Assembly: GCF_004358105.1 (NCBI RefSeq)
Contig: NZ_SMYL01000005.1
Coordinates: 186,001 to 250,000 of the forward strand
Source: Sapientia aquatica
GTDB taxonomy: Bacteria > Pseudomonadota > Gammaproteobacteria > Burkholderiales > Burkholderiaceae_D
Length of the DNA stretch: 64,000 nucleotides
Direction: 5' to 3'
The notes beneath the pieces were generated by a model. It was not told the DNA's origin. It worked only from the letters and a program-made list of their open reading frames with translations, and searched no databases. Of this stretch, positions 4,823 through 16,547 are shown one piece after another (position 1 is the stretch's first letter; each line of letters begins with the position of its first letter). The position numbers and the translations under genes were made by a program.

Positions 4823-6712
4823 TTATTTAGTCGGTTCAGTCGGTATCGATACTTCAATACTCGTCCCATGTTCATCGCCCGTAATCGTTAGTTCGCCCTG
4901 TAAAGCCCGCACTCGCTCGCGCATGCCGACCAAGCCAAACGATTGGCGCTTGCGGAAATCTTCCTGTGCAATTCCACGTCCGTTATCTTGAATTTTAAAA
5001 TGCACTTGACCTTCTGCTTGACTCAAACAGATTTGCACCTTGGTCGCTTGTGCGTGGCGCACGACGTTGGTGAGCGACTCTTGAATGACGCGATAAATCG
5101 TGGTGCTGATTTGATCATTCAGAATCAATTCACCTTCAACTGCGCTAAGTTCGCATTCGATCTGGTGGCGTTGATTAAACTCTTTTTGCAATGAAAGCAG
5201 TGCAAAAAATAATCCACCTTCGTCCAAAGCGCGTGGTCGTAAATCGGTAGCTATTCGACGTAGCGTAGAAATTGAATTCAACAACAACTTATCCATGCTC
5301 TGGAAAATAGGCTGGGCGGCTGGATTGTCGGGGATGCGCTTTTCTAAAACGGTTAAATCCATGCGCAGGGCCGCCAGTAATTGGCCTAAATCATCGTGCA
5401 ATTCGCGCGCGATATGCTTGCGTTCCTCTTCGCGCACAGTTTGTAGCGATTGGGATAAATTGCTTAACTCTTGGTGATACTGATCCATTTTTTCTTTGGC
5501 GAGCTTGCGATCAGTAATGTCTCTAAATATGACCGTGTAAAAGCGTTCCCCGTCTTCGACCAAGCTGGAAATCGATGCCTCAATCGGAAATTCTTGGCCA
5601 TTTTTCTTCAAGCCAGTAACCGAAAAATCCGCACTTTTTATCCCCATTTGGCGAATCGATACGCCGGTTTTACCAAATTGATCGACATGTTGCGCATGGC
5701 CTTTGCGATGATGCATGGGAATACATTGATTCAAATTCATCCCTATCATTTGCTCAGGCTCGTAGCCAAAAAAACCTTCGGCTGCGGCATTAACCAGCAC
5801 GATTCGATGTTGTGAATCGATGGTGATGATGCCATCGGTGGCGGTTTGGATGATGCCAGTTAAGCGACTGCGGTTTTTTTGAACTTCTAAGCGTGCTACC
5901 GTAAGTTGGTTGAACGGCACGCGGATACTTACTGTGACGATGCTGAAATACAGGCTTAAGGCTGCAATAAATTTATACAGTTGGCCGATCGTGATGAGCA
6001 ACTCATTGGTTTGGTGAAAATTGGATAGGCAAAATTCCGACATCGCCAAAACTGTGCAGGCTGCAAACAAGAACGATTTCTCGACCCGATCTGCATGGGC
6101 TTGGGCGATCTTGGTTTGGTAATAGAAAATCGCCCCAGAGACCAAGAACAATGCGATCAGCAAACCTTCCAATCCTTGCCTCACGGCGTAAGACCAGGTA
6201 TTGACTTGGTCTAGCGGCGGGATTTTGTCGAAATAGACAAATACTAAAAAACTGACTAGAGCAACGCCGCACAGCGAGGCTTCCAGCACCCAGCGTGAAT
6301 GCCGTTTAGACAAATCGCTTGAGAGCCGCTCAATGGCGACCAGTAACAAAATGATCGCAGCAGTAATGCGCCATAAAAAGCTAAATAGCAGCGTGGCTTG
6401 TTGGTAACTGCTTGACGTAAAACTGGGGATGGCGCTGGTAATGTTGAAGAAACTGAAAATCGCCACGCATAAAAAACCAATCGCCAACACCACCGAGCGC
6501 GATTGCCGGTGAATACTGTAGGCGTTCCAGCTCACGATAAAAATGGAAAAAAATAACACCACGCAAACGAGTTCGATTAAAAACCGAAATGGCACTGGTT
6601 TGAGTTCGCCCAAAGCGGGCAGATGCGTATTAAAAACTAGGGATAGTAGTAGGAAGGCAAATAGAGCAAACACGCTGCGGCGCGCGATGACTAATTCTCG
6701 TGGGAGCTTCAT
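4823..6712 (-). CDS. Membrane PAS-domain sensor histidine kinase (MASE3-like, HisKA_3/NarX type)
   Basis: A 629-residue kinase. Residues 1-270 form a multi-pass membrane sensor resembling MASE3; 285-405 is a PAS domain (GIIQTATDGIITID to FRDITDRK). A HisKA_3 dimerisation domain follows with phospho-acceptor His439 in ARELHDDLGQ, then a C-terminal ATPase with the G1 box DNGRGI and GLVGMRERV. This type normally pairs with a LuxR/NarL-family response regulator. None is adjacent; the nearest receiver is the isolated one at 8583-8969, upstream on the same strand. A terminator separates it from the UspA gene, so it probably has its own promoter. The signal is unknown. Confidence 0.9.
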   Translation of the reverse strand: MKLPRELVIARRSVFALFAFLLLSLVFNTHLPALGELKPVPFRFLIELVCVVLFFSIFIVSWNAYSIHRQSRSVVLAIGFLCVAIFSFFNITSAIPSFTSSSYQQATLLFSFLWRITAAIILLLVAIERLSSDLSKRHSRWVLEASLCGVALVSFLVFVYFDKIPPLDQVNTWSYAVRQGLEGLLIALFLVSGAIFYYQTKIAQAHADRVEKSFLFAACTVLAMSEFCLSNFHQTNELLITIGQLYKFIAALSLYFSIVTVSIRVPFNQLTVARLEVQKNRSRLTGIIQTATDGIITIDSQHRIVLVNAAAEGFFGYEPEQMIGMNLNQCIPMHHRKGHAQHVDQFGKTGVSIRQMGIKSADFSVTGLKKNGQEFPIEASISSLVEDGERFYTVIFRDITDRKLAKEKMDQYHQELSNLSQSLQTVREEERKHIARELHDDLGQLLAALRMDLTVLEKRIPDNPAAQPIFQSMDKLLLNSISTLRRIATDLRPRALDEGGLFFALLSLQKEFNQRHQIECELSAVEGELILNDQISTTIYRVIQESLTNVVRHAQATKVQICLSQAEGQVHFKIQDNGRGIAQEDFRKRQSFGLVGMRERVRALQGELTITGDEHGTSIEVSIPTEPTK

Positions 6713-7672: not shown

Positions 7673-7696
7673 GGTAACTCCCTGTGACAAATCGAC

Positions 7697-8551
7697 TTAA
7701 TTCAGTGCCGGTGCCATGCCCCATGCGGAGATGGTCGAGCTTTGAAAGCATTCTGAGATTTTGGCTTTCAGTTTGTTGGATGGCAACTTGCGCAAATTTC
7801 TTAACGCTTCCGCGTCATTGATGCAAATATGACGTTGGCTGACCGATATTAAACCTAATTCATTGAGCGCGGACAGAGTGCGGCTCACGGTTTCCAAGGT
7901 TAAACCGAGGTAGCTCCCGATATCATTGCGTGTCATGCGTAAATTGAAGGTCGATTTGGAATAGCCTAATAAGAAGAAACGTTCCGACAAAGACAGCAAG
8001 AATTTCGCAACGCGGGCTTCGGCGCTGGCCGAGCCATGAATGCTTAAACGTGTTTGTTGACGGGCTAATTCCTTGCTCATCAAACCAAAGATGGCTTGGC
8101 CGAGTTGATCGTAGCTGTGGCTTAAGGTCGCGATGGTTTTGTATGGGAGCAAAATAATGTCGCAGTCCGATAAAGCAATCGCCTCGGAACTGTGATGGGC
8201 GCAGTGAATACTATCCATGCCCAAAACGTCGCCCTTCATTGGGAAACTGAGCACTTGTTCGGTACCGAACTCATCAAACAAAATCGTTTTGATAAAGCCG
8301 GAATTAACCAAGTACAGCGAATCAAAATTTTGACCCAATGTATGAATCCGTTGGCCCGCTTTAAAGTGCATATGTTGGAACAATACGTTTTCGCGCTGCA
8401 ATGCTTGTGGCATCGGCACGTGTAAGAATTCGGCGACTTCGGCTAGGTTAGACCACAATTTATTTTGCGATGTCCAGTTGGTGCAAATTGGAGCGGACTC
8501 TTTTTGCATCATGTGAGCGACTGGGCGTTCTAAGGTAGATTCTTGTAACAT
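7697..8551 (-). CDS. Crp/Fnr family transcriptional regulator
   Basis: About 284 residues: an N-terminal extension, a cyclic-nucleotide-binding-type beta-roll (FKAGQRIHTLGQNFDSLYLV), a dimerisation helix and a C-terminal winged helix with RNDIGSYLGLTLETVSRTL. The E-x-x-S-R recognition helix predicts binding to Fnr-type TTGAT-N4-ATCAA sites. It lacks the N-terminal cysteine cluster of true Fnr: only one Cys is near the start, with two more singly in the core. Direct 4Fe-4S oxygen sensing is therefore unlikely. The ATG at 8551 has a purine-rich AGAGAGA before it; an upstream ATG at 8581 is possible. Encoded between a receiver and a UspA gene. Confidence 0.88.
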   Translation of the reverse strand: MLQESTLERPVAHMMQKESAPICTNWTSQNKLWSNLAEVAEFLHVPMPQALQRENVLFQHMHFKAGQRIHTLGQNFDSLYLVNSGFIKTILFDEFGTEQVLSFPMKGDVLGMDSIHCAHHSSEAIALSDCDIILLPYKTIATLSHSYDQLGQAIFGLMSKELARQQTRLSIHGSASAEARVAKFLLSLSERFFLLGYSKSTFNLRMTRNDIGSYLGLTLETVSRTLSALNELGLISVSQRHICINDAEALRNLRKLPSNKLKAKISECFQSSTISAWGMAPALN

Positions 8552-8582
8552 GAGGATCTCTCTTTCTTGGTTGTGAGCCATA

Positions 8583-8969
8583 CTAGTTATGTAGCCAAAG
8601 TTGTAATAAAGGGATAAGTTGATCGCTGTCGGTCGATTTGTCTAAAAAACTATCTGCTCCGGCGCGCATTGCTAATTTTCTGCATTCTTCATCGGCGTGA
8701 TTGCTAAATACGACTACCTTGATTGTTGGGATGGATGCTTTAATTGTTTTTAATAATCCCAAGCTGTTTCCGTCTGGTAGCTGTGTATCTAAAATCACCG
8801 CTTGTACTTCTTCCGTGTCTTCCACGTATTCATTGTTTTTTAAAATTAACCGCGTTGCCGTTGCCAAGTCGCCTGCAATACTGCTGACGTGGATTTCAGG
8901 AAATTGCTCGATCATATTTTTTAAACGTTCTTGAATATGGACGGAGTCTTCAACGATGCATACATTCAT
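8583..8969 (-). CDS. Single-domain response regulator (receiver only)
   Basis: A 128-residue CheY-like receiver with no output domain: acidic pair in IVEDS near residue 6, phospho-acceptor Asp in VILDTQLPDG, the Ser/Thr switch in VVFSNH and the conserved Lys in FLDKS. It could act as a phosphate shuttle or by protein contact. It heads a minus-strand group with the Crp/Fnr-type regulator (31-base gap). The MASE3/PAS kinase further down is a plausible but unproven partner. ATG at 8969 is chosen because the receiver fold begins immediately; the longer frame upstream has no family character. Confidence 0.85.
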   Translation of the reverse strand: MNVCIVEDSVHIQERLKNMIEQFPEIHVSSIAGDLATATRLILKNNEYVEDTEEVQAVILDTQLPDGNSLGLLKTIKASIPTIKVVVFSNHADEECRKLAMRAGADSFLDKSTDSDQLIPLLQLWLHN

Positions 8970-9071
8970 AGTCTTGCTTGCGGTTCTGTTTTCATGCGAG
9001 CAGTATCTGGCATTTGCGTCAGATAAGAAATCAGCGTTGGCTGATTCACAATGTCGGAAATTGGACAGCCG

Positions 9072-9089
9072 TGTAGGAGATTTCCTACA
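9072..9089. promoter_or_regulatory. 18-bp palindrome upstream of the receiver gene
   Basis: TGTAGGA and TCCTACA form perfect 7-base arms around GATT, about 100 bases upstream of the minus-strand receiver gene. There is no T-run, so it looks more like an operator than a terminator. The size fits a dimeric regulator, but no specific protein can be named. Confidence 0.45.
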
Positions 9090-9165
9090 GGCGAGCTTGC
9101 GCCAGCGCAAGCAGGTTGCGCTGATTGGGAAGGGATCTTGCGAGGGAGTTTGAGCTAAGCGCGCC

Positions 9166-9852
9166 TTAGGTTTGAGCCCATTGGCGCAGTACGTTGTGAT
9201 AACAACCGACTAAAGTGCGGCGTGCGTTTTCGTCCGCATTAGTTTGGTTGAGCTGCTGAATCGCGTTATCCATGTCAAACAAGATGGCGCGTTGCGCATC
9301 GTCTCTGACCAAACTTTGAATCCAAAAAAAACAAGCCACACGCGTGCCTCTGGTTACCGGCGTGACTTGATGCAAGCTCGTGGATGGGTAGAGCACCATA
9401 TCACCCGCGTTGAACTTAGCGCTGTGCATCCCATAGGTGTCGTTGATTTGTAATTCGCCGCCATCGTAGTCGCTTGGCTCGGCTAAGAATAAGGTGGCGG
9501 AAATATCGGTACGTAATTTTTGTCCGGTATGCGGATGAATTCTTACGCTGCCATCCACATGCGCGCCAAAAGTCATACCTTCGCTATAACGATTAAACAT
9601 TGGCGGATAAACGACATTGGGCAGCGCTGCGCTGATGAATAAGGGATTGCGCTCCAAGGCCGATAACACGATGCGCTGACACTGATGCGTGATCTCGGAC
9701 TTTTCATCGCATTGCTGATTAAACTTCACCGGCGCGCCTTGATAGCCCGCGGTCGCACGCCCATCCACCCACGCCTCAGGATGTTGCGCTAACAGCGTTT
9801 GTACCGCGTTTAGTTGCTCCAAATTGAGCGCGTTGGGGATGTGAATGAGCAT
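9166..9852 (-). CDS. PKHD-type Fe(II)/2-oxoglutarate hydroxylase (PiuC/YbiX family)
   Basis: This 228-residue protein matches the PKHD hydroxylase family in length. It has the iron-binding H-x-D in FGAHVDGSVR, the distal His in STSLHQVTPVTRG, and the following Arg expected to bind 2-oxoglutarate. Members are found next to TonB-dependent siderophore receptors and are iron-repressed; their substrate is not settled. Here the gene lies 7 bases downstream of such a receptor, so both should share the Fur-like box at about 12150. Family call is firm. Confidence 0.92.
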   Translation of the reverse strand: MLIHIPNALNLEQLNAVQTLLAQHPEAWVDGRATAGYQGAPVKFNQQCDEKSEITHQCQRIVLSALERNPLFISAALPNVVYPPMFNRYSEGMTFGAHVDGSVRIHPHTGQKLRTDISATLFLAEPSDYDGGELQINDTYGMHSAKFNAGDMVLYPSTSLHQVTPVTRGTRVACFFWIQSLVRDDAQRAILFDMDNAIQQLNQTNADENARRTLVGCYHNVLRQWAQT

Positions 9853-9859
9853 AGTTTTC

Positions 9860-12085
9860 CTACATGCGATAAGTCAATGACAACATAGCGGAGCGTCCGG
9901 TGCCCGGAACCGCGCGACCGCCATCGGATGGGATTAAATTATCGTAGTACATCTTGTCGGTTAAATTAAATAAATTTAACCGCACGGTGTAGTTTTGCTT
10001 GTTATACGCCACCGTTGCATCCCAGCGAGTAAATCCGCCGACCCGCACTGTATTGGCAGAATTAGCAAAGCGTTCCGACATATAGACCGGTCCGCCGCCG
10101 ACTTCCCACCGTGGAGTCAACTCATAAGTCAGCCAGCCGGTGAAACTGTTTTGCGGAGTGTTTGTGGTGCGTAAGCCGTTGGTTCCATCTACTGCAGAAA
10201 TCACCCTAGCATCAAGGTAGGTGTAGTTGGCCGATAATTGCAATTGCTTGTTCACCCGCCCACTCAGACCCGTTCTAAAACCATCAACGCGGACTTTGCC
10301 GACCAAATCATACACGCCGGGGCTAATTTGGTTACGGGCGTTTTCTTTGGTGATTTGAAACACCGCAGCGGAAGCATCGAGTTTGTTGTCGGCTAATTCC
10401 CATTTACCACCGAGTTCATACGAGTGATTTTTCTCCGGATCGAGATTTTGTTGGCCGGCTGTACCGGTTAATTGCTCCAGCGACGGATTGAATGAAGTGC
10501 CATACGACACATAATACGATTGCGCCCGATCAGGCTGCCAGATTCCGCCCAAACGCACACTGGTAAAGCCAACGGTTTGGTCCGCACCAGCTAAGGCAGT
10601 GCTGCCCGGCGTATTCACTTTATTGATCGAGTTACTAATGCTGGCCACAAAGCGGTCATAGCGCAAGCCGCCGGTTAATTTAAAGTTAGGCGAAATGGTC
10701 CACGTATCGTTGAGATAAGCCGCTACCGTATTAGCGGAACCGCCCGCGCGATTACCGGTAAAGCGTTTAACGCTTGTCGCCGTGCTGGTGTGAGTTGGAT
10801 CGGTGAGCGAGAGGCAATCGACTACGCCGGTCGTTGATCCTGGTTTATTGAGTGGCACGCCGTTGCAATTGCCTTGGCGGTAGTGGCCTTGATTGTCGTA
10901 ACCATCGTGACCGACTTCAATGCCGCCGATTAAGTCATGAGTGAATTGTCCGGCAGTTACTTTGGCGATGATTTCGCTTTGATTGAAGATCGAATAATCG
11001 CTAATCTCACGATCACGACTTTGACGTCGCACACTCAAACTCGATAACGGTAGATTACCAGCCCCGCTTGCAGGCAACGCTGTAAAGCCCGCTGCGCTGA
11101 CGGTGCCAATTGATAATGGGGCGGTTTCGACTGCATCAGTTTTTACCGAATTGAATTGCACCTGATTACGCAGGGTAACCGTTGGTGTCAACTTGTGTTC
11201 GATGGTGTTATTGAGGTTGGCGATGGTGGAAATAGTGCGGTCGCTATCCAAGCCGTAAGCCGCATTGCGATCAACTTGCACTGGTTTGCCATTGAGCGGT
11301 AGCACGCCCCAATCGGGTTCGTCGTGATTTTTTTGCAGCAGGGCGGATAGGGTAATTTCGGTTGGTGTGTTCATGCCCCATTTGATTGACGGGGCAATCC
11401 CTGCGTCGCGTTGATTGCTCAAATCACGTGTGGTGGCATCGCCGCCTTGCGCCATCCCCATAATGCGCACAGCCGACGTTTCGGACAGCGGTGTATTTTT
11501 ATCGAAGGTGCCGCGCACTTGGCCGTTGGTGCTGACCGAACCTTGGAGTTCGGTGAAATCTTTAGTGACTGGCTTTTTGCTGACTTGATTAATCACGCCG
11601 CCGGTTGAGCCGCGTCCGAATAACATCGAAGAAGGCCCCATTAGCACTTCCACCGCGTCGAGTGAAAACGTATCGCGGTAATACTGACCGCGATCTCTAA
11701 AGCCATCTAAATAAATGTCGGTGCGCGCCGAAAAGCCGTTTAAGTTGATGTTGTTCCCGATCTGCCCACCCTCGGCAGCGCCCAAGGTGATGCCGGACAC
11801 ATTACGCAAGGCCTCAGCCAGAGAATTAGCACCTTGCGATTCCATCAGCTCTTTATTGACCACCGTGACTGACTGGGGAATATCGCGCAACTCAGCGTGT
11901 AATTTGCCTACGTTGATGTTACCGGGTGCGAAGTTATTCTTGGTGCCGTCAATATCGACTTGATGAACTGGTGCGGGCGACGCTAATGGAGCAGGTGCGG
12001 GCGCAGGTACTGGGTCAGCGTGGACTATTGCAGGGCTAGTTGTTAGCGCAAACAGCGCGGCGGCGATCGGGGTGCGGCGAATCAT
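9860..12085 (-). CDS. TonB-dependent siderophore receptor (Fiu/CirA type)
   Basis: A 741-residue outer-membrane receptor: signal peptide (residues 1-23, ending VHAD), a proline/alanine-rich linker, then an N-terminal plug (DIPQSVTVVNKELMESQG, GFSARTDIYLDGFRDRGQ, GRGSTGGVINQVSKKP) and a long 22-strand barrel ending in the aromatic tail SLTYRM. It should import a ferric siderophore, probably catecholate by analogy with Fiu, using TonB energy. It is first in a two-gene operon with the PKHD hydroxylase. The upstream Fur-like box predicts induction by iron limitation. The ligand is inferred from family only. Confidence 0.93.
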   Translation of the reverse strand: MIRRTPIAAALFALTTSPAIVHADPVPAPAPAPLASPAPVHQVDIDGTKNNFAPGNINVGKLHAELRDIPQSVTVVNKELMESQGANSLAEALRNVSGITLGAAEGGQIGNNINLNGFSARTDIYLDGFRDRGQYYRDTFSLDAVEVLMGPSSMLFGRGSTGGVINQVSKKPVTKDFTELQGSVSTNGQVRGTFDKNTPLSETSAVRIMGMAQGGDATTRDLSNQRDAGIAPSIKWGMNTPTEITLSALLQKNHDEPDWGVLPLNGKPVQVDRNAAYGLDSDRTISTIANLNNTIEHKLTPTVTLRNQVQFNSVKTDAVETAPLSIGTVSAAGFTALPASGAGNLPLSSLSVRRQSRDREISDYSIFNQSEIIAKVTAGQFTHDLIGGIEVGHDGYDNQGHYRQGNCNGVPLNKPGSTTGVVDCLSLTDPTHTSTATSVKRFTGNRAGGSANTVAAYLNDTWTISPNFKLTGGLRYDRFVASISNSINKVNTPGSTALAGADQTVGFTSVRLGGIWQPDRAQSYYVSYGTSFNPSLEQLTGTAGQQNLDPEKNHSYELGGKWELADNKLDASAAVFQITKENARNQISPGVYDLVGKVRVDGFRTGLSGRVNKQLQLSANYTYLDARVISAVDGTNGLRTTNTPQNSFTGWLTYELTPRWEVGGGPVYMSERFANSANTVRVGGFTRWDATVAYNKQNYTVRLNLFNLTDKMYYDNLIPSDGGRAVPGTGRSAMLSLTYRM

Positions 12086-12166: not shown

Positions 12167-12739
12167 ATTTAATTTTAGAGAATTTATTTAATTTTTGTGC
12201 CGAATAATAGTTTGGTCTTGACAACTAAATCGACTATTGAGCCCAGCGTATCGTGCTTGAAGTTACGGTAATAGTCGGAAGATAGGCGAATAAAGCCGTA
12301 ATAAAAGCGAGTTTGGTTACTTTTCGAGGGATGTGAAGTGACATCGAAGTCATCTAATTGTGAATTAATTTCAGATAAATCTTGAATTACGGCCAGCGCT
12401 AAACCAATAATAAATTGATAAACCGCCACCAAACGGCCTCAACGAGAATTGCAAGCGCGACAAATGTAGCGATGTGCCGTTCAAAGTGCGTCGTGTTTAG
12501 TGCAGTGAGCGCGCGTTTAAATTGGAAAGTCTTCTTAATCCGAGCCCAATGGCGAGTATCTCTGCGAACTATCAACTGCACACAAAGCCCGAGAAAAATA
12601 AGGTCGAACTCCCGCCATAAATCATTACCGCGATGTAGTTTGGCAAATAATTTGAAACATAAAGTATTGTTCGCCAGCAAATTTTGTAAATTAACGTTAA
12701 TATGTTTTGCTGGAAACAAAATGCAAAGAAATTATTGAA
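12167..12739. other. Intergenic stretch with no convincing gene
   Basis: This AT-rich stretch separates the siderophore receptor from the binding-protein gene. Two overlapping minus-strand frames (12399-12719 and 12184-12432) each encode a short hydrophobic segment. Together they could be a frameshifted remnant of a small membrane protein, but neither resembles a family I know and neither has a good ribosome-binding site. I leave them uncalled. Confidence 0.4.
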
Positions 12740-13519
12740 ATGCTCAAACGATTTTTACCCTGCTTGTTGTTCTTTCTGGTGCAAGCCCTGCACGCGCAAA
12801 CCGCCACGCCTACCAAAATTTGCGGCGATCCCAATCCAAGTGAATGGATCACGCCCGCCACCCTAGCGCAACATCCAGAGTTGTCTGCGGTCACCGGTAT
12901 CTCGGTCGATATGATGCGAGCGGTGTTTAATGTGCTGGGCAAAGAAGTGATTGTTACTGCCGATTTGCCGTGGAAGCGCTGCTTAAACGAAGTCCAAAAC
13001 GGCAATATCGATTTTGCGATGGGCGCTTATTACGATCAAGAGCGCGCCAAGACGTTTGATTATTCAATCCACTACAACACGCTCACACCACAAATTTTTT
13101 ATTTGAGCTCCAACCTAGTAACGGCAGCCAGTTTGAATGAACTCAAACGCTATAAAGGTTGCGGTAATTACGGTTCTAGTTATGAACACTATGGTTTGAG
13201 TGCAGCCCAACTTGATTTAGGGGCGGGTTACGATTCCATGATTCGAAAACTGCGCGCTAAGCGTTGTGATTATTTTGTTGAGGAGCTGGAAATCATCGCC
13301 AGTTTTAAAATGTTTGGTAAAGATATTTTGAGCGAACCCGAAATTGCTCACTCGAACGCACCGTGGGCGGTGGCTCCATCGCGCTATGTGATTACCGCCA
13401 AGGGCAAAAATGCCAAGCTGCTAGAACAAATTAATCACGCGCTAGAAGGCTTGATTAAATCCGGCAAAGCTGCCGAAATCTGGAAGACTGGCCTTGGTGC
13501 GATTCCCTACAAGCCTTAA
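12740..13519 (+). CDS. Periplasmic substrate-binding protein (SBP_bac_3-like)
   Basis: A 259-residue protein with a cleavable signal peptide (MLKRFLPCLLFFLVQALHAQ) and the bilobal solute-binding pattern: an early GISVDMMRAVFNVLGK, then LPWKRCLNEVQNGNIDFAMG and YDQERAKTFDYS. This family binds amino acids or similar small solutes in the periplasm. No permease or ATPase gene is adjacent, so it is an orphan that either works with a distant transporter or acts as a sensor. The ATG at 12740 is chosen because it opens directly into the signal peptide. A strong terminator follows. Confidence 0.8.
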   Translation: MLKRFLPCLLFFLVQALHAQTATPTKICGDPNPSEWITPATLAQHPELSAVTGISVDMMRAVFNVLGKEVIVTADLPWKRCLNEVQNGNIDFAMGAYYDQERAKTFDYSIHYNTLTPQIFYLSSNLVTAASLNELKRYKGCGNYGSSYEHYGLSAAQLDLGAGYDSMIRKLRAKRCDYFVEELEIIASFKMFGKDILSEPEIAHSNAPWAVAPSRYVITAKGKNAKLLEQINHALEGLIKSGKAAEIWKTGLGAIPYKP

Positions 13520-13559
13520 ATTACTCGCGGGTGAATTTATCCTTAACATGGCACGAAAA

Positions 13560-13591
13560 AAAACGGCGTACAACTCAATGTACGCCGTTTT
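13560..13591. terminator. Bidirectional rho-independent terminator
   Basis: Arms AAAACGGCGTACA (13560-13572) and TGTACGCCGTTTT (13579-13591) pair perfectly around loop ACTCAA. It lies between the plus-strand binding-protein gene and the end of the minus-strand borosin operon and can serve both. Confidence 0.85.
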
Positions 13592-13651
13592 CTATTTCCG
13601 AATCACGCCTTAGTCAGCGTTAATTATTCCGCATAAAACAGGGCAGGGACT

Positions 13652-14467
13652 TCACGCCGCAGCGCGTAAGCGTTCCAATTCTTTTAGTTGGTGCATGATG
13701 TCTTCGTCGTATTGCATACTTTGCGCCGCTGGAATAACTAACGTGGTGTGCTGCTTCAAACTGGCACTGGGCAAATCACCCAAACGAATTTTTTCAGCTC
13801 GTGTTTGCTCTAGCGCGTGGGTCGCTGCTTCGTACAAAATCACCTCATGGTCGAGCGAATAGGTGCGCGCTAATTTATTAACGATGATCTGTAAATGCGC
13901 TGGCTCGGTGTCGTAACGTTTTAAGGTCAAGTCACCAGCAATCCCGATTTGCCACACCACAAACAGGGCGGACGGGTCGATGACGCGCTCAAAAATCATA
14001 AACTGTGTGGCTTCCATCGAAATCATGCCGTTGTTGCCCGGATCAATGCCCAGATCAGCAACCAAACAATCCAATGCCGAGATGCCTGGTTCCATGTGCG
14101 CTTCAAATCCTTCAGCGCGTGCATCTTTAATGGCCATGTGCGAGATGCAGGCGAAGATGCCGGGGTGTCCATAAAACGCAGCGCAGACTTTTTTTCCAGC
14201 GCGGACTTCTGCCAAAATCGTGTCAGCCATGCGGCGATAGGTATCGCGTCGATTTTTACCGTCGAGTTGGGCGTCGTCGTAATGATCGAGAATGCACACG
14301 TAGTTCTTGGCGACGCCTTTAAGCCATTCACGGGTGAACATATTCGGAACCGCCGCAAATACGACATCAAACGATTCAATATAGCTCTTAGATAACGGTG
14401 TTAATTGTCCTGCCATGCGCAAGCCCGTGCCGACGCACACTAATTTGCCTATTTTTTTCTCGGTCAT
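13652..14467 (-). CDS. Split-borosin peptide backbone alpha-N-methyltransferase (tetrapyrrole-methylase fold)
   Basis: A 271-residue protein of the tetrapyrrole methylase fold, but with the pattern of borosin N-methyltransferases (fungal OphMA, Shewanella SonM), which methylate backbone amides of a ribosomal peptide using SAM. Seen directly: the SAM-binding start VCVGTGLRMAGQLTPLS; a Tyr at 63 with the NRRDTYRRM block at 72-80, matching the catalytic Tyr-Arg-Tyr set of OphMA; FYGHPGIFACISH at 98-110; MEPGISALDCLVADLGIDPG at 125-144. No C-terminal core peptide is fused, so it is the split type acting on a separate precursor. A matching precursor gene lies two genes upstream in the same operon. 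Cobalamin and siroheme biosynthesis genes are absent nearby, which argues against a corrin or porphyrin substrate. Confidence 0.85.
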   Translation of the reverse strand: MTEKKIGKLVCVGTGLRMAGQLTPLSKSYIESFDVVFAAVPNMFTREWLKGVAKNYVCILDHYDDAQLDGKNRRDTYRRMADTILAEVRAGKKVCAAFYGHPGIFACISHMAIKDARAEGFEAHMEPGISALDCLVADLGIDPGNNGMISMEATQFMIFERVIDPSALFVVWQIGIAGDLTLKRYDTEPAHLQIIVNKLARTYSLDHEVILYEAATHALEQTRAEKIRLGDLPSASLKQHTTLVIPAAQSMQYDEDIMHQLKELERLRAAA

Positions 14468-14485
14468 TTTGGTTTCTTTTAAAAT

Positions 14486-16324
14486 TTATGCTGCGATAGA
14501 ACTGGATTCGTTTGCCTTGGTTGTAGGCGTTGGGGTCTCTGGTAAGCCCATTGATTTAGAGACGACAACACAATTACGGCCTTCGGCTTTTGCTTGGTAG
14601 AGCGCTTTATCGGCTGCTTCTAATAAAGCGGGGAAGTTACGATCATCGTTGAGACCTAAGTAGGCAATGCCAAAGCTTGCGCTAAGTGGGAATTGCACGC
14701 CCGAGGGCTCGGTATTAATTTTTTCAATCGCGGCACGGCAGCGCTGGGCGATTTGCCATGCGGTAGTGACATCCGTATCGGGCAAGCAAATCGCAAATTC
14801 TTCCCCACCCAGACGACCAAATAAATCACCGCTACGCAATTGCGTGCTGACCGTTTGGCAGACCGCCAGCAAAACCCAGTCGCCAACGGCGTGACCATGG
14901 TTATCGTTAATGCGTTTAAAGAAATCCATGTCGAACAAGATTAAGCTGACAAATTGGTTGTGCGCTTCAACGATTTCCTCGGTACACGACAGGAAGTGAT
15001 CGCGTGTGCTGATGCGCGTTAAGGCATCGATTTGCGTCTTGATTCGGAAGACATTTTTTTGCAGAGTGACTTTCCACACATACAATCCAAGTGCTGCGGA
15101 AACGATGAAGGCCAATGCAATAATCAGTGTCAGATTTTCGCTATTCTTTTTCTCTAATTGCTTTTCAATTGCTAGGATTTTATTTTGACGTTCAAGCATG
15201 GTGACTTGATTCGACTGATCTTGAACGTTAAATTTTACCCGTTGGTAGGCAATATTTTTTTGTAGTTCCTCGTCCAGTAACGCATTCTTTTTCTCGATCG
15301 CTTTTTCGGCATAGTCAAGCGCGCTGGCATACTGACCCTGGGCGCGTTTAATCAGTGCAAGGGTTTCTAAGGATTTTTCAGTTTGCTGAGCTAGTTTCTG
15401 AGAATCGGCAGTTTTATATGCCATCAACGCAAAGTGTTCAGCTTCCTCTAATTTTCCTCTATGGAGGTATGCAGTAGCGAGGCTCTCCTCCAACCTTGTG
15501 GCATCCTTGGTATTTAGAATTGACTCAGGAAACGCTTTCAACGCGGTTAATCCGGCATCAATTCCATTTTGGTAGTGATGATTTTCGATTAAATCGATAG
15601 CGCCGATCGATTCAACTATCAGAGAAATATAATGCCAGTTAATGGCGTCGCAAGCCTCTATCGCAGTTTTAATATGATCGTTAGCAACGGAGCTCTGCTT
15701 AAGCATCACATATATGTCAGCCCGATCTGCACTAGCGATACATTTTGCAGCAGATATATCGAGTTTTGATCCTTGTATATCAAACATTCGCTGAGCGTAT
15801 TCCAGGGATTCTTGGTAGGCGTGGATTGAGTTGTGCAGATCTATTGCGCTCTGTAATGTGTCGATTTGTGCAATAGCATCGGTGACCTTAGGCAAAATTG
15901 CTATGCCTTGATTCATGGTATTCAGTGCTGACTCATATTCGCCCAGAGCGAGGTAGGAAATAGTCAGTTGGTAAAGAAATTTAGACTTGGTATTGGCTTC
16001 ATCTTCGGAGTTTAAAAAGCCATTAATAAATGAAATATTTTCTTGGTGCTTACCAAATAAAGCTAACAGTGAAGCTTTTATTAAGCGAAAGTGCAGAAGT
16101 TGTGCGGGGGTAAACTTGTCTTGCTGCGCCTGCAATTCCTCTAGTTCCTTGCTTGCTAGTTGCTGATTGCTGGTCGAAATTTGCTGAACGTGTTTGAGTG
16201 ATTTTTCGACTTCGTCACTTTCCGATGCGCGCACAATTGACAGAAAGCCCCCAGCGAAAAATAGAAACACCACGACTACAAAAAATTGTAGAAGTGCTCT
16301 ATCTCGTGAGGACTTAGTTGCCAC
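14486..16324 (-). CDS. Membrane TPR-GGDEF diguanylate cyclase inside the borosin operon
   Basis: A 612-residue protein. An N-terminal hydrophobic segment (about residues 13-33) is followed by tetratricopeptide-like helices to about 340, a coiled-coil stretch (ERQNKILAIEKQLEKKNSEN), a second membrane segment (about 398-418) and a C-terminal GGDEF domain. The active site is GGEEF at 506-510, with an intact RxxD inhibitory site (RSGD, 497-500), so it should make c-di-GMP and be product-inhibited. The TPR part is predicted periplasmic. The GTG start at 16324 lies 4 bases after the precursor stop, and the methyltransferase begins 18 bases after its end, so all three are one transcript. The signal it senses is unknown. 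Confidence 0.9.
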   Translation of the reverse strand: MATKSSRDRALLQFFVVVVFLFFAGGFLSIVRASESDEVEKSLKHVQQISTSNQQLASKELEELQAQQDKFTPAQLLHFRLIKASLLALFGKHQENISFINGFLNSEDEANTKSKFLYQLTISYLALGEYESALNTMNQGIAILPKVTDAIAQIDTLQSAIDLHNSIHAYQESLEYAQRMFDIQGSKLDISAAKCIASADRADIYVMLKQSSVANDHIKTAIEACDAINWHYISLIVESIGAIDLIENHHYQNGIDAGLTALKAFPESILNTKDATRLEESLATAYLHRGKLEEAEHFALMAYKTADSQKLAQQTEKSLETLALIKRAQGQYASALDYAEKAIEKKNALLDEELQKNIAYQRVKFNVQDQSNQVTMLERQNKILAIEKQLEKKNSENLTLIIALAFIVSAALGLYVWKVTLQKNVFRIKTQIDALTRISTRDHFLSCTEEIVEAHNQFVSLILFDMDFFKRINDNHGHAVGDWVLLAVCQTVSTQLRSGDLFGRLGGEEFAICLPDTDVTTAWQIAQRCRAAIEKINTEPSGVQFPLSASFGIAYLGLNDDRNFPALLEAADKALYQAKAEGRNCVVVSKSMGLPETPTPTTKANESSSIAA

Positions 16325-16328
16325 AGAC

Positions 16329-16547
16329 TTAGTGATTGATGAACTGCGGCACTGTGATCATTGGCATTTCTGCTGCGCTAATGCCAATGGCCTGGGCCAC
16401 TTGCTTGTGATCACCAGAGAGCATGGCTTGCTTCTCGTCATCTGATAAACCAAAATTGTCCATCGCTTGATGCGGGTCTTGAGTATGTGCAGCGATACCA
16501 TCGGCGTTTTGATCAAGGTGATTCAAGTAGTCGAGTAATTTAGACAT
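16329..16547 (-). CDS. Split-borosin precursor peptide (LigA-like leader plus C-terminal core)
   Basis: This 72-residue peptide begins MSKLLDYLNHLDQNADG. Residues 1-55 look like the helical LigA-like borosin-binding domain: a QDPHQAMDNFGLSDDEKQAM block followed by LSGD and VAQAIG, the same layout as the Shewanella SonA precursor. The C-terminal 15-17 residues (SAAEMPMITVPQFINH) are unlike the leader: short, hydrophobic, beta-branched, with two prolines. They are the likely core whose backbone amides are methylated. The ATG at 16547 gives the family length; an upstream in-frame start adds 13 residues with no family character. It is first gene of the operon, with a GTG-started cyclase 4 bases downstream. 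The nature of the final product and any export or proteolysis genes are not visible. Confidence 0.8.
   Translation of the reverse strand: MSKLLDYLNHLDQNADGIAAHTQDPHQAMDNFGLSDDEKQAMLSGDHKQVAQAIGISAAEMPMITVPQFINH

Follow-up and report, generated by a model that had tools for sequence, protein, structure and literature searches.

A type IV split-borosin operon of Sapientia aquatica with a TPR-diguanylate cyclase gene between precursor and methyltransferase

Why would a membrane sensor be encoded between the precursor peptide and the modifying enzyme of a borosin pathway? The question is raised by three genes on the (-) strand of a 64,000-nucleotide stretch of the Sapientia aquatica genome (the window), which form one operon in the order precursor, TPR-diguanylate cyclase, backbone N-methyltransferase. 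The first gene encodes a 72 aa precursor peptide of the SonA type (16329..16547; ATG at 16547, stop at 16329), and its stop is 4 nt from the start of the second, which encodes a transmembrane TPR-diguanylate cyclase of 612 aa (14486..16324; GTG start; GGDEF and TPR in Pfam). After a gap of 18 nt follows the gene for a borosin backbone N-methyltransferase of 271 aa (13652..14467; ATG at 14467, stop at 13652). A preliminary description of this DNA had named the methyltransferase and the 72-residue peptide, and both genes are present at these coordinates. It had also placed the peptide at the start of the operon, correctly, but it omitted the 612-residue TPR-GGDEF gene, which fills most of the interval that it described.

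A split-borosin enzyme and its precursor

The methyltransferase matches SonM in the PDB at E 3.4e-81 and the fungal borosin enzymes at E 1.7e-38 to 2.5e-46. Its residues Y63, R73, Y77 and Y99 align with Y58, R67, Y71 and Y93 of SonM and, together with H101, are invariant in all 76 aligned rows. The Tyr/Arg/Tyr block (Y63, R73, Y77) and the YGHPG segment (residues 99-103) on which the borosin assignment had been based are thus present and aligned to SonM. By its sequence the product of 13652-14467(-) is a borosin backbone N-methyltransferase, encoded by a single-copy gene in this genome, and it very probably methylates the backbone of the precursor.

The precursor leader (borosin binding domain; residues 1-53 by SonA register, 16389..16547, (-) strand) aligns to SonA 1-59 without gaps, with domain boundaries taken from the description of SonA (PMC8429565 section 8). 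The peptide by itself matched SonA at E 0.00098, and a leader profile drawn from 15 beta-proteobacterial rows, none of them from Shewanella, matched SonA at E 1.9e-9, no further PDB entry reaching E <= 1. A 25-row profile reached E 5.6e-20, a value that flatters the match because two SonA-like Shewanella rows are inside that profile. The peptide had been called LigA-like, which is correct, with the qualification that the Pfam match is weak (17.8 bits against a cut-off of 25.3). At E <= 0.01 it is the sole match in the genome to its precursor profile.

The putative core, again by SonA register, comprises residues 62-72 (PMITVPQFINH; 16332..16364, (-) strand). Over 17 loci the mean pairwise identity is 54% for the leader and 14% for residues 62-72, so the unlike tail noted earlier is indeed far more variable than the rest. 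Prolines, here at positions 62 and 67, cannot be N-methylated. In SonA the methyl sites are L63 and I65 (PMC8429565), and by the same register M63 and T65 are the predicted methylated positions here. The SonM-type enzyme, SonA-type leader and variable core support the original reading of the locus as a RiPP system of the borosin kind.

The locus adds a member to the type IV split borosins, a known group. It shares with SonM/SonA of Shewanella oneidensis (PMC8429565; PDB 7LTC and others) the enzyme family, the active-site residues, the leader domain and a separate precursor of about 72 aa, but its enzyme has diverged clearly from SonM, and its core is different. In OphMA and other fungal borosins a homologous methyltransferase domain shares one chain with the precursor, while here the two are encoded by separate genes.

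Downstream of the methyltransferase gene, a hairpin followed by a U-tract (13559..13592, (-) strand; region -23.8 kcal/mol, z -5.06) is likely the operon terminator, a call that rests on folding and reading of the sequence; the pattern scan did not list it. The promoter scan returned three sites against 5.5 in shuffled sequences, and no promoter is therefore claimed. The three-gene operon contains neither an exporter nor a leader peptidase gene. A defence system was considered and rejected: a PADLOC search returned nothing for the enzyme or the precursor and one weak match for the TPR region (E 0.0039).

The sensor and its linkage to the borosin genes

The product of the middle gene has a predicted signal peptide, a TPR array, a transmembrane helix and an intact diguanylate cyclase domain (Pfam GGDEF E 2.1e-38, plus TPR), and its AlphaFold2 model has a mean pLDDT of 90.2 and a pTM of 0.61. 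From the alignment and this model, residues 36-395 (15140..16219, (-) strand) form a predicted periplasmic TPR sensor region. The transmembrane helix at residues 398-416 (15077..15133, (-) strand) was assigned from the hydropathy of the truncated L001 copy, shifted by 119 residues. The GGDEF domain (residues 428-588; 14561..15043, (-) strand) contains GGEEF at 506-510 and an I-site-like RSGD at 497-500. Residues D465, D467, F469, K470, N473, D474, G507, E508, E509 and F510 are invariant in 41 of 41 rows; judged from this alignment, the protein has the GGDEF/GGEEF active site and the metal-binding residues of a diguanylate cyclase. All 50 Foldseek matches listed for it are GGDEF-bearing entries, and these 50 say nothing about a TPR ligand. 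We do not claim kinship with RRNPP-type peptide receptors, because the match of the TPR region to RapF (E 0.03) is no better than that to kinesin light chain.

The search for relatives found 74, or 72 once two loci cut by contig ends (L021 and L076) were omitted; the short loci L001 and L002 were left out of every tally. In every one of the 72 loci the enzyme is accompanied by a TPR sensor from this family, encoded on the same strand no more than 1,063 nt from an enzyme gene or as part of the enzyme's own chain; the profile used for scoring was built from 23 of the loci and did not include the other 49. The weakest match, L072 at 4e-13, is little better than the partial matches (2.7e-11 and 3.6e-11) in two genomes that lack the enzyme. 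The sensor output is GGDEF in 69 loci and a histidine kinase in three (L059, L066 and L072). Lacking a cyclase, these three could pass for exceptions, but Pfam shows TPR histidine kinases there. Elsewhere L106 likewise has a histidine kinase output and L105 has both a histidine kinase and GGDEF, and because the output varies in this way the TPR sensor is the constant part.

The linkage persists over two gene orders and one clade of cyclase-methyltransferase fusions (17 rows, mostly Lysobacterales; support 98/90). The GGDEF motif is present in the alignment of all 17 fused rows; an AlphaFold model of one fused relative had a mean pLDDT of 76.9, with the methyltransferase part poor. L030 has another GGDEF gene besides its TPR-diguanylate cyclase (7694-9523), and in L046, from a MAG, the TPR and the GGDEF-methyltransferase are in different frames. 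An iterated profile found precursors at E <= 0.01 in 70 of the 72 loci, L051 and L056 having no match at that threshold. The match in L028 is weak (0.005), and the precursors of L029, L071, L073 and L074 lie inside over-long reading frames.

The S. aquatica genome contains 38 GGDEF matches in 4.43 Mb, so the expectation of chance adjacency is small. Among 300 genomes of the host's order (its own included) the two with the enzyme are also the two with the TPR region; in the genome surveys the TPR candidates scored were the top 5 or 6 of each genome. Ten of 369 genomes of the host's class (again with its own) have the enzyme. In four of these, the host's among them, it has both a leader-type precursor and a TPR sensor beside it, and in the other six neither was found there. 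One genome has two TPR-diguanylate cyclase relatives away from its enzyme (L108, L109), and the 8 kb surrounding each of them contained no match to the precursor.

The arrangement extends to a close relative of SonM/SonA. In L026 the enzyme is 74% identical to SonM, the precursor matches SonA at 3.8e-20 and a TPR-diguanylate cyclase begins 15 nt past the precursor. This gene comes after both precursor and enzyme in L026 and L031, which are Shewanella loci, whereas in the window it lies between them. The main text of PMC8429565 contains no occurrence of GGDEF or diguanylate. The Figure 1 legend of PMC11395268 (2024) lists GGDEF among borosin architectures, so that, going by this legend, the linkage of sensor and borosin is at least partly in print; our guess is that the architecture meant there is the fused form. 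Given these observations, we consider it very likely that sensor and borosin are functionally connected in some way.

Rates of change and competing explanations

The swaps of the output speak for a receptor role of the TPR sensor, and so do the rates at which the parts change. Over 17 loci (L006, L012 and second precursors left out), mean identity is 17% for the core, 35% for the TPR region, 54% for GGDEF and 67% for the methyltransferase, and the core and the TPR region are the fastest-changing parts. With methyltransferase, leader and GGDEF similarity controlled, core similarity tracks TPR similarity in the 17 loci (r 0.36, p 0.0005) and in the 13 beta loci (r 0.37, p 0.011), while it does not track the methyltransferase (r -0.02, p 0.57). 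Core and TPR are not alone in co-varying, however: leader similarity follows that of the TPR region as well (r 0.32 to 0.38, p 0.008 to 0.02), and core similarity follows that of GGDEF over the 17 loci (r 0.24, p 0.01) but not over the 13 (p 0.31), which leaves the signal unspecific. The test was exploratory, and shared ancestry is only partly removed from these values.

The sensor might instead act upstream, its TPR region responding to an unrelated periplasmic or redox cue through Cys195 and Cys225, and its c-di-GMP or phosphorelay output switching the expression or activity of the borosin enzyme, with the peptide an ordinary effector natural product. Conservation of the linkage fits this too. 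The two cysteines are invariant in 41 of 41 rows of diguanylate cyclase-type TPRs and sit on neighbouring helices of the AlphaFold2 model (187-207 and 211-227); the histidine-kinase type TPRs of L059, L066, L072 and L106 are without the pair. GGDEF domains work as dimers. SonM is a homodimer, according to an extract of PMC11285071, so the fusion of cyclase and methyltransferase would suit allosteric control. Against this, there is no need for the sensor of a common cue to diverge as quickly as the TPR region does or to track the precursor, and Pfam found no c-di-GMP-binding domain in P0001 or P0002. We regard such upstream control as rather unlikely.

It is more doubtful that the full-length methylated precursor remains in the cell and works there as a small regulatory or inhibitory protein, with methylation as a conformational lock and no release of a peptide. 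The operon's lack of peptidase and exporter would agree with this, and the conformations of the SonA core differ greatly between unmethylated and methylated forms (PMC8429565 section 16). A cytoplasmic product would, however, miss the periplasmic TPR region. A borosin precursor reportedly inhibits a pepsin-like protease, and a gene for such a protease (PF00026, one member tested) is near the enzyme in six loci, but all six fall outside the window's clade. Among the 25 most recurrent neighbour families in flanks of up to 6 kb, none was seen to be common to the whole set; an M14 carboxypeptidase recurs in seven loci, and genes read as an RND-type efflux system are neighbours in four loci each. 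Since protease, carboxypeptidase and RND-type genes recur, a processing or export gene is possible in parts of the family.

That the cyclase is a hitch-hiker in a mobile cassette, with no role alongside the borosin, is highly improbable: the cassette is patchy (two of 300 genomes) and blastn of window positions 3001-27000 against the nearest relative, L003, aligned the three genes only, but sensor and borosin genes have stayed linked although two gene orders occur, the cyclase is fused in one clade and the output domain has been exchanged. The preliminary description had named best matches to cobalamin or siroheme methylases as evidence against its reading, and the sequence comparison refutes that identity, since the shared TP-methylase fold (PF00590, E 5e-20) is accompanied by a best cobalamin methylase match in the PDB (precorrin-2 C20-methyltransferase) of only E 0.0018 against 3.4e-81 for SonM, by NCBIfam corrin scores far below their cut-offs and by invariant borosin residues.

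A possible signalling module

We infer that the borosin product and the sensor form one signalling module. The helical leader of the precursor would dock on the methyltransferase homodimer, and the backbone amides of the core would be methylated from N to C in a SAM-dependent reaction, most likely in the stretch between prolines 62 and 67, at M63 and T65 or close to them. Homology supports this docking and methylation strongly, and we hold it to be highly probable. The methylated product, whole or cleaved, would then be recognised by the cognate TPR domain on the predicted periplasmic side, and binding would be relayed along a long helix (residues 332-431) to the GGDEF domain in the cytoplasm, changing c-di-GMP; this receptor direction is put forward tentatively. 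To the explanation of the operon as a whole, with methylation followed by TPR recognition and then a change in c-di-GMP, we assign a probability of roughly 50%. Counting against it are the lack of an exporter or leader peptidase gene in the operon, the limited specificity of the co-variation, the TPR-diguanylate cyclase relatives away from the enzyme (L108, L109), the weak L072 match and the missing cysteine pair in the histidine-kinase type TPRs.

On this reading the cassette would act like ComQ-ComX-ComP of Bacillus, where ComX and the ComP sensor are variable. As an extract of PMC4008528 describes it, modifying enzyme, precursor and membrane receptor are encoded adjacently there, as are enzyme, precursor and proposed receptor here. 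The modification is isoprenylation in that system and backbone methylation in this one, and the likeness is in the way of working, not in membership. We know of no parts shared between the two.

As of 2021, a final natural product had yet to be assigned to any split borosin pathway (PMC8429565 Discussion). It is conceivable, if somewhat speculative, that bacterial type IV borosins are cell-made signals of ComQXP-like modules in which a TPR receptor is joined to an interchangeable output (diguanylate cyclase, diguanylate cyclase-methyltransferase fusion or hybrid histidine kinase). That close relatives carry the sensor too suggests a possible signalling role for this known class of modified peptides. 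Since a sensor whose output can be GGDEF or histidine kinase accompanies both precursor and enzyme, the purpose of bacterial borosins becomes accessible to direct binding and c-di-GMP experiments and, if the receptor reading is true, backbone N-methylation would join the chemistries of bacterial peptide signals.

A borosin methyltransferase and its precursor

The preliminary description of this stretch had proposed a split borosin operon comprising a backbone N-methyltransferase and a separate precursor peptide, and both genes were found at the positions claimed. The precursor (16329-16547, minus strand) is the first of three genes, followed after 4 nt by a TPR-GGDEF protein with a GTG start (14486-16324, minus strand) and, after a further 18 nt, by the methyltransferase (13652-14467, minus strand). 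A hairpin with a U-tract (13559-13592, minus strand; z -5.06) lies 3' of the methyltransferase. Elsewhere, a TonB-dependent receptor adjoins a PKHD-type 2OG-Fe(II) hydroxylase (window 9166-12085), probably an ordinary iron-uptake pair, with the gene for an SBP_bac_3 protein next at 12707-13519.

The assignment of the enzyme as a borosin N-methyltransferase is borne out by its match to SonM of Shewanella oneidensis (E 3.4e-81), which spans nearly the whole length, and fungal borosin enzymes match at E 1.7e-38 to 2.5e-46. A corrin methylase identity was rejected, the best such match being E 0.0018 versus 3.4e-81 for SonM. Mutating SonM Y58, R67, Y71 or Y93 reduces activity (PMC8429565); the corresponding Y63, R73, Y77 and Y99 are invariant in 76/76 aligned rows. 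The enzyme's chemistry would be that of its homologue, a protein of solved structure and assayed activity. A search of the genome gave one copy of the enzyme.

The peptide aligns with the precursor SonA without gaps over residues 1-59 (E 0.00098), in keeping with its proposed role. A profile of 15 beta-proteobacterial relatives of the precursor found SonA at 1.9e-9 and, SonA aside, no PDB entry at E <= 1; a 25-row profile, which includes two SonA-like Shewanella rows, reached SonA at 5.6e-20. SonA has a linker at residues 54-61, a core from 62 and methyl groups on L63 and I65 (PMC8429565). By this register PMITVPQFINH would be the core of the window precursor, with M63 and T65 the predicted methyl sites. 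Across 17 loci sharing the gene order, mean identity is 54% for the leader, 17% for residues 57-72 and 14% for residues 62-72. The genome search found one precursor of this type.

A TPR sensor linked to the enzyme

At its N-terminus the TPR-GGDEF protein has a hydrophobic stretch and a V-R-A site, which together resemble a signal peptide. TPR helices are followed by a long helix (332-431) passing through a transmembrane stretch (398-416) and then by a GGDEF domain that retains GGEEF together with its metal and substrate residues; from this topology we infer that the TPR part is periplasmic. Cys195 and Cys225 of the TPR region are invariant in 41/41 relatives and sit on consecutive helices in the structure model, so a disulfide between them is possible. 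GGDEF is among the borosin architecture elements in the Figure 1 legend of PMC11395268.

Scanning genome contigs with the window enzyme as query gave 74 loci, a sample biased towards close relatives of the query, ranging from Oxalobacteraceae to Shewanella, Ferrimonas, Dyella, Luteimonas and others; the nearest is Solimicrobium silvestre (85%). Two loci are cut by contig ends and linkage was counted in the other 72. A TPR sensor was found in 72/72: it shares the strand of an enzyme gene and lies no further than 1,063 nt from it, or else belongs to the enzyme chain (49 of these loci were absent from the profile used in the TPR search). GGDEF lies nearby on the same strand, or within the enzyme chain, in 69 (52 split, 17 fused), and the other three (L059, L066 and L072) have, directly after the precursor, a TPR protein that carries a histidine kinase. 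The sensor is no peculiarity of the window, since L026, a close relative of the SonM/SonA locus, also has a TPR-GGDEF cyclase right after its precursor.

In L066 (8206-12718), a REC-GGDEF response regulator comes after the TPR hybrid kinase, so the kinase form too may lead to c-di-GMP. The Solimicrobium locus (L003) has a second precursor between cyclase and methyltransferase (5647-5976) whose end letters resemble a GGDEF-domain tail, as if precursor and cyclase had been duplicated and the second cyclase mostly lost. Lysobacter profundi (L030:6834-7673) has three precursors in a row ahead of the cyclase. Two precursors are present at several further loci, and L032 has two whole cassettes.

In a wider sample of the class (369 genomes, counting that of the window), 10 carry the enzyme. 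In four of these, own included, a leader-type precursor and TPR sensor adjoin the enzyme, and in the other six neither was found within ~6 kb (a shorter span where one contig ended); by hand calculation the Fisher probability of this split is 1 in 210, and 1 in 84 when the window is excluded. Among the four, L106 has a hybrid histidine kinase as output and L105 combines a TPR kinase with a TPR cyclase. Within the order, 2 of 300 genomes, own included, have the enzyme, and the TPR region was found in these two. In both samples TPR scoring covered the best 5 or 6 candidates per genome. One genome carries two TPR-GGDEF cyclases distant from its enzyme (L108, L109).

Gene order on the enzyme tree

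In a 76-row enzyme tree, in which the tree program flagged several long branches, the window pairs with Solimicrobium (100/97), surrounded by beta-proteobacterial rows that share its gene order. Fused rows make up a single clade (98/90), and gene-order labels need four changes versus 35.3 when shuffled. GGDEF or GGEEF is kept in 17/17 fused rows, and in none of them is an RxxD spaced as an I-site usually is. When window 3001-27000 was compared with the nearest relative by blastn, only the three operon genes aligned.

Some relatives have peptidase genes close to the enzyme: a pepsin-like aspartic protease (PF00026) in six gamma-proteobacterial loci (L022, L027, L028, L034, L047 and L075, e.g. 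L075:3590-5278; one member tested) and an M14 carboxypeptidase in seven, mostly Undibacterium (one member tested), including L006 (2207-3913), where it is encoded immediately 5' of the precursor in the same orientation. The M14 recurrence may be plain synteny, since other neighbours are also shared. A GNAT acetyltransferase family is found close to the enzyme in 15 loci (e.g. L022:5294-5848; one member tested).

A possible reader of the borosin product

As of 2021, bacterial borosins had no established function (PMC8429565, Discussion). Because the sensor is constant while the output changes, the most likely reading in our view is that the TPR domain senses the borosin product. Against this counts that the window operon has no exporter or peptidase gene, although peptidase genes occur near the enzyme in the relatives named above. 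In the main alternative, which is also plausible, the sensor would govern borosin production. The core co-varies with the TPR domain when the other genes are controlled for (r 0.36, p 0.0005), which agrees with the TPR domain reading the product; as the leader likewise co-varies with TPR, and the core also with GGDEF in the larger of the two locus sets, this lends weak support. According to the abstract of PMC8429565, backbone methylation promotes permeability through membranes, and we speculate that it might ease passage of the product.
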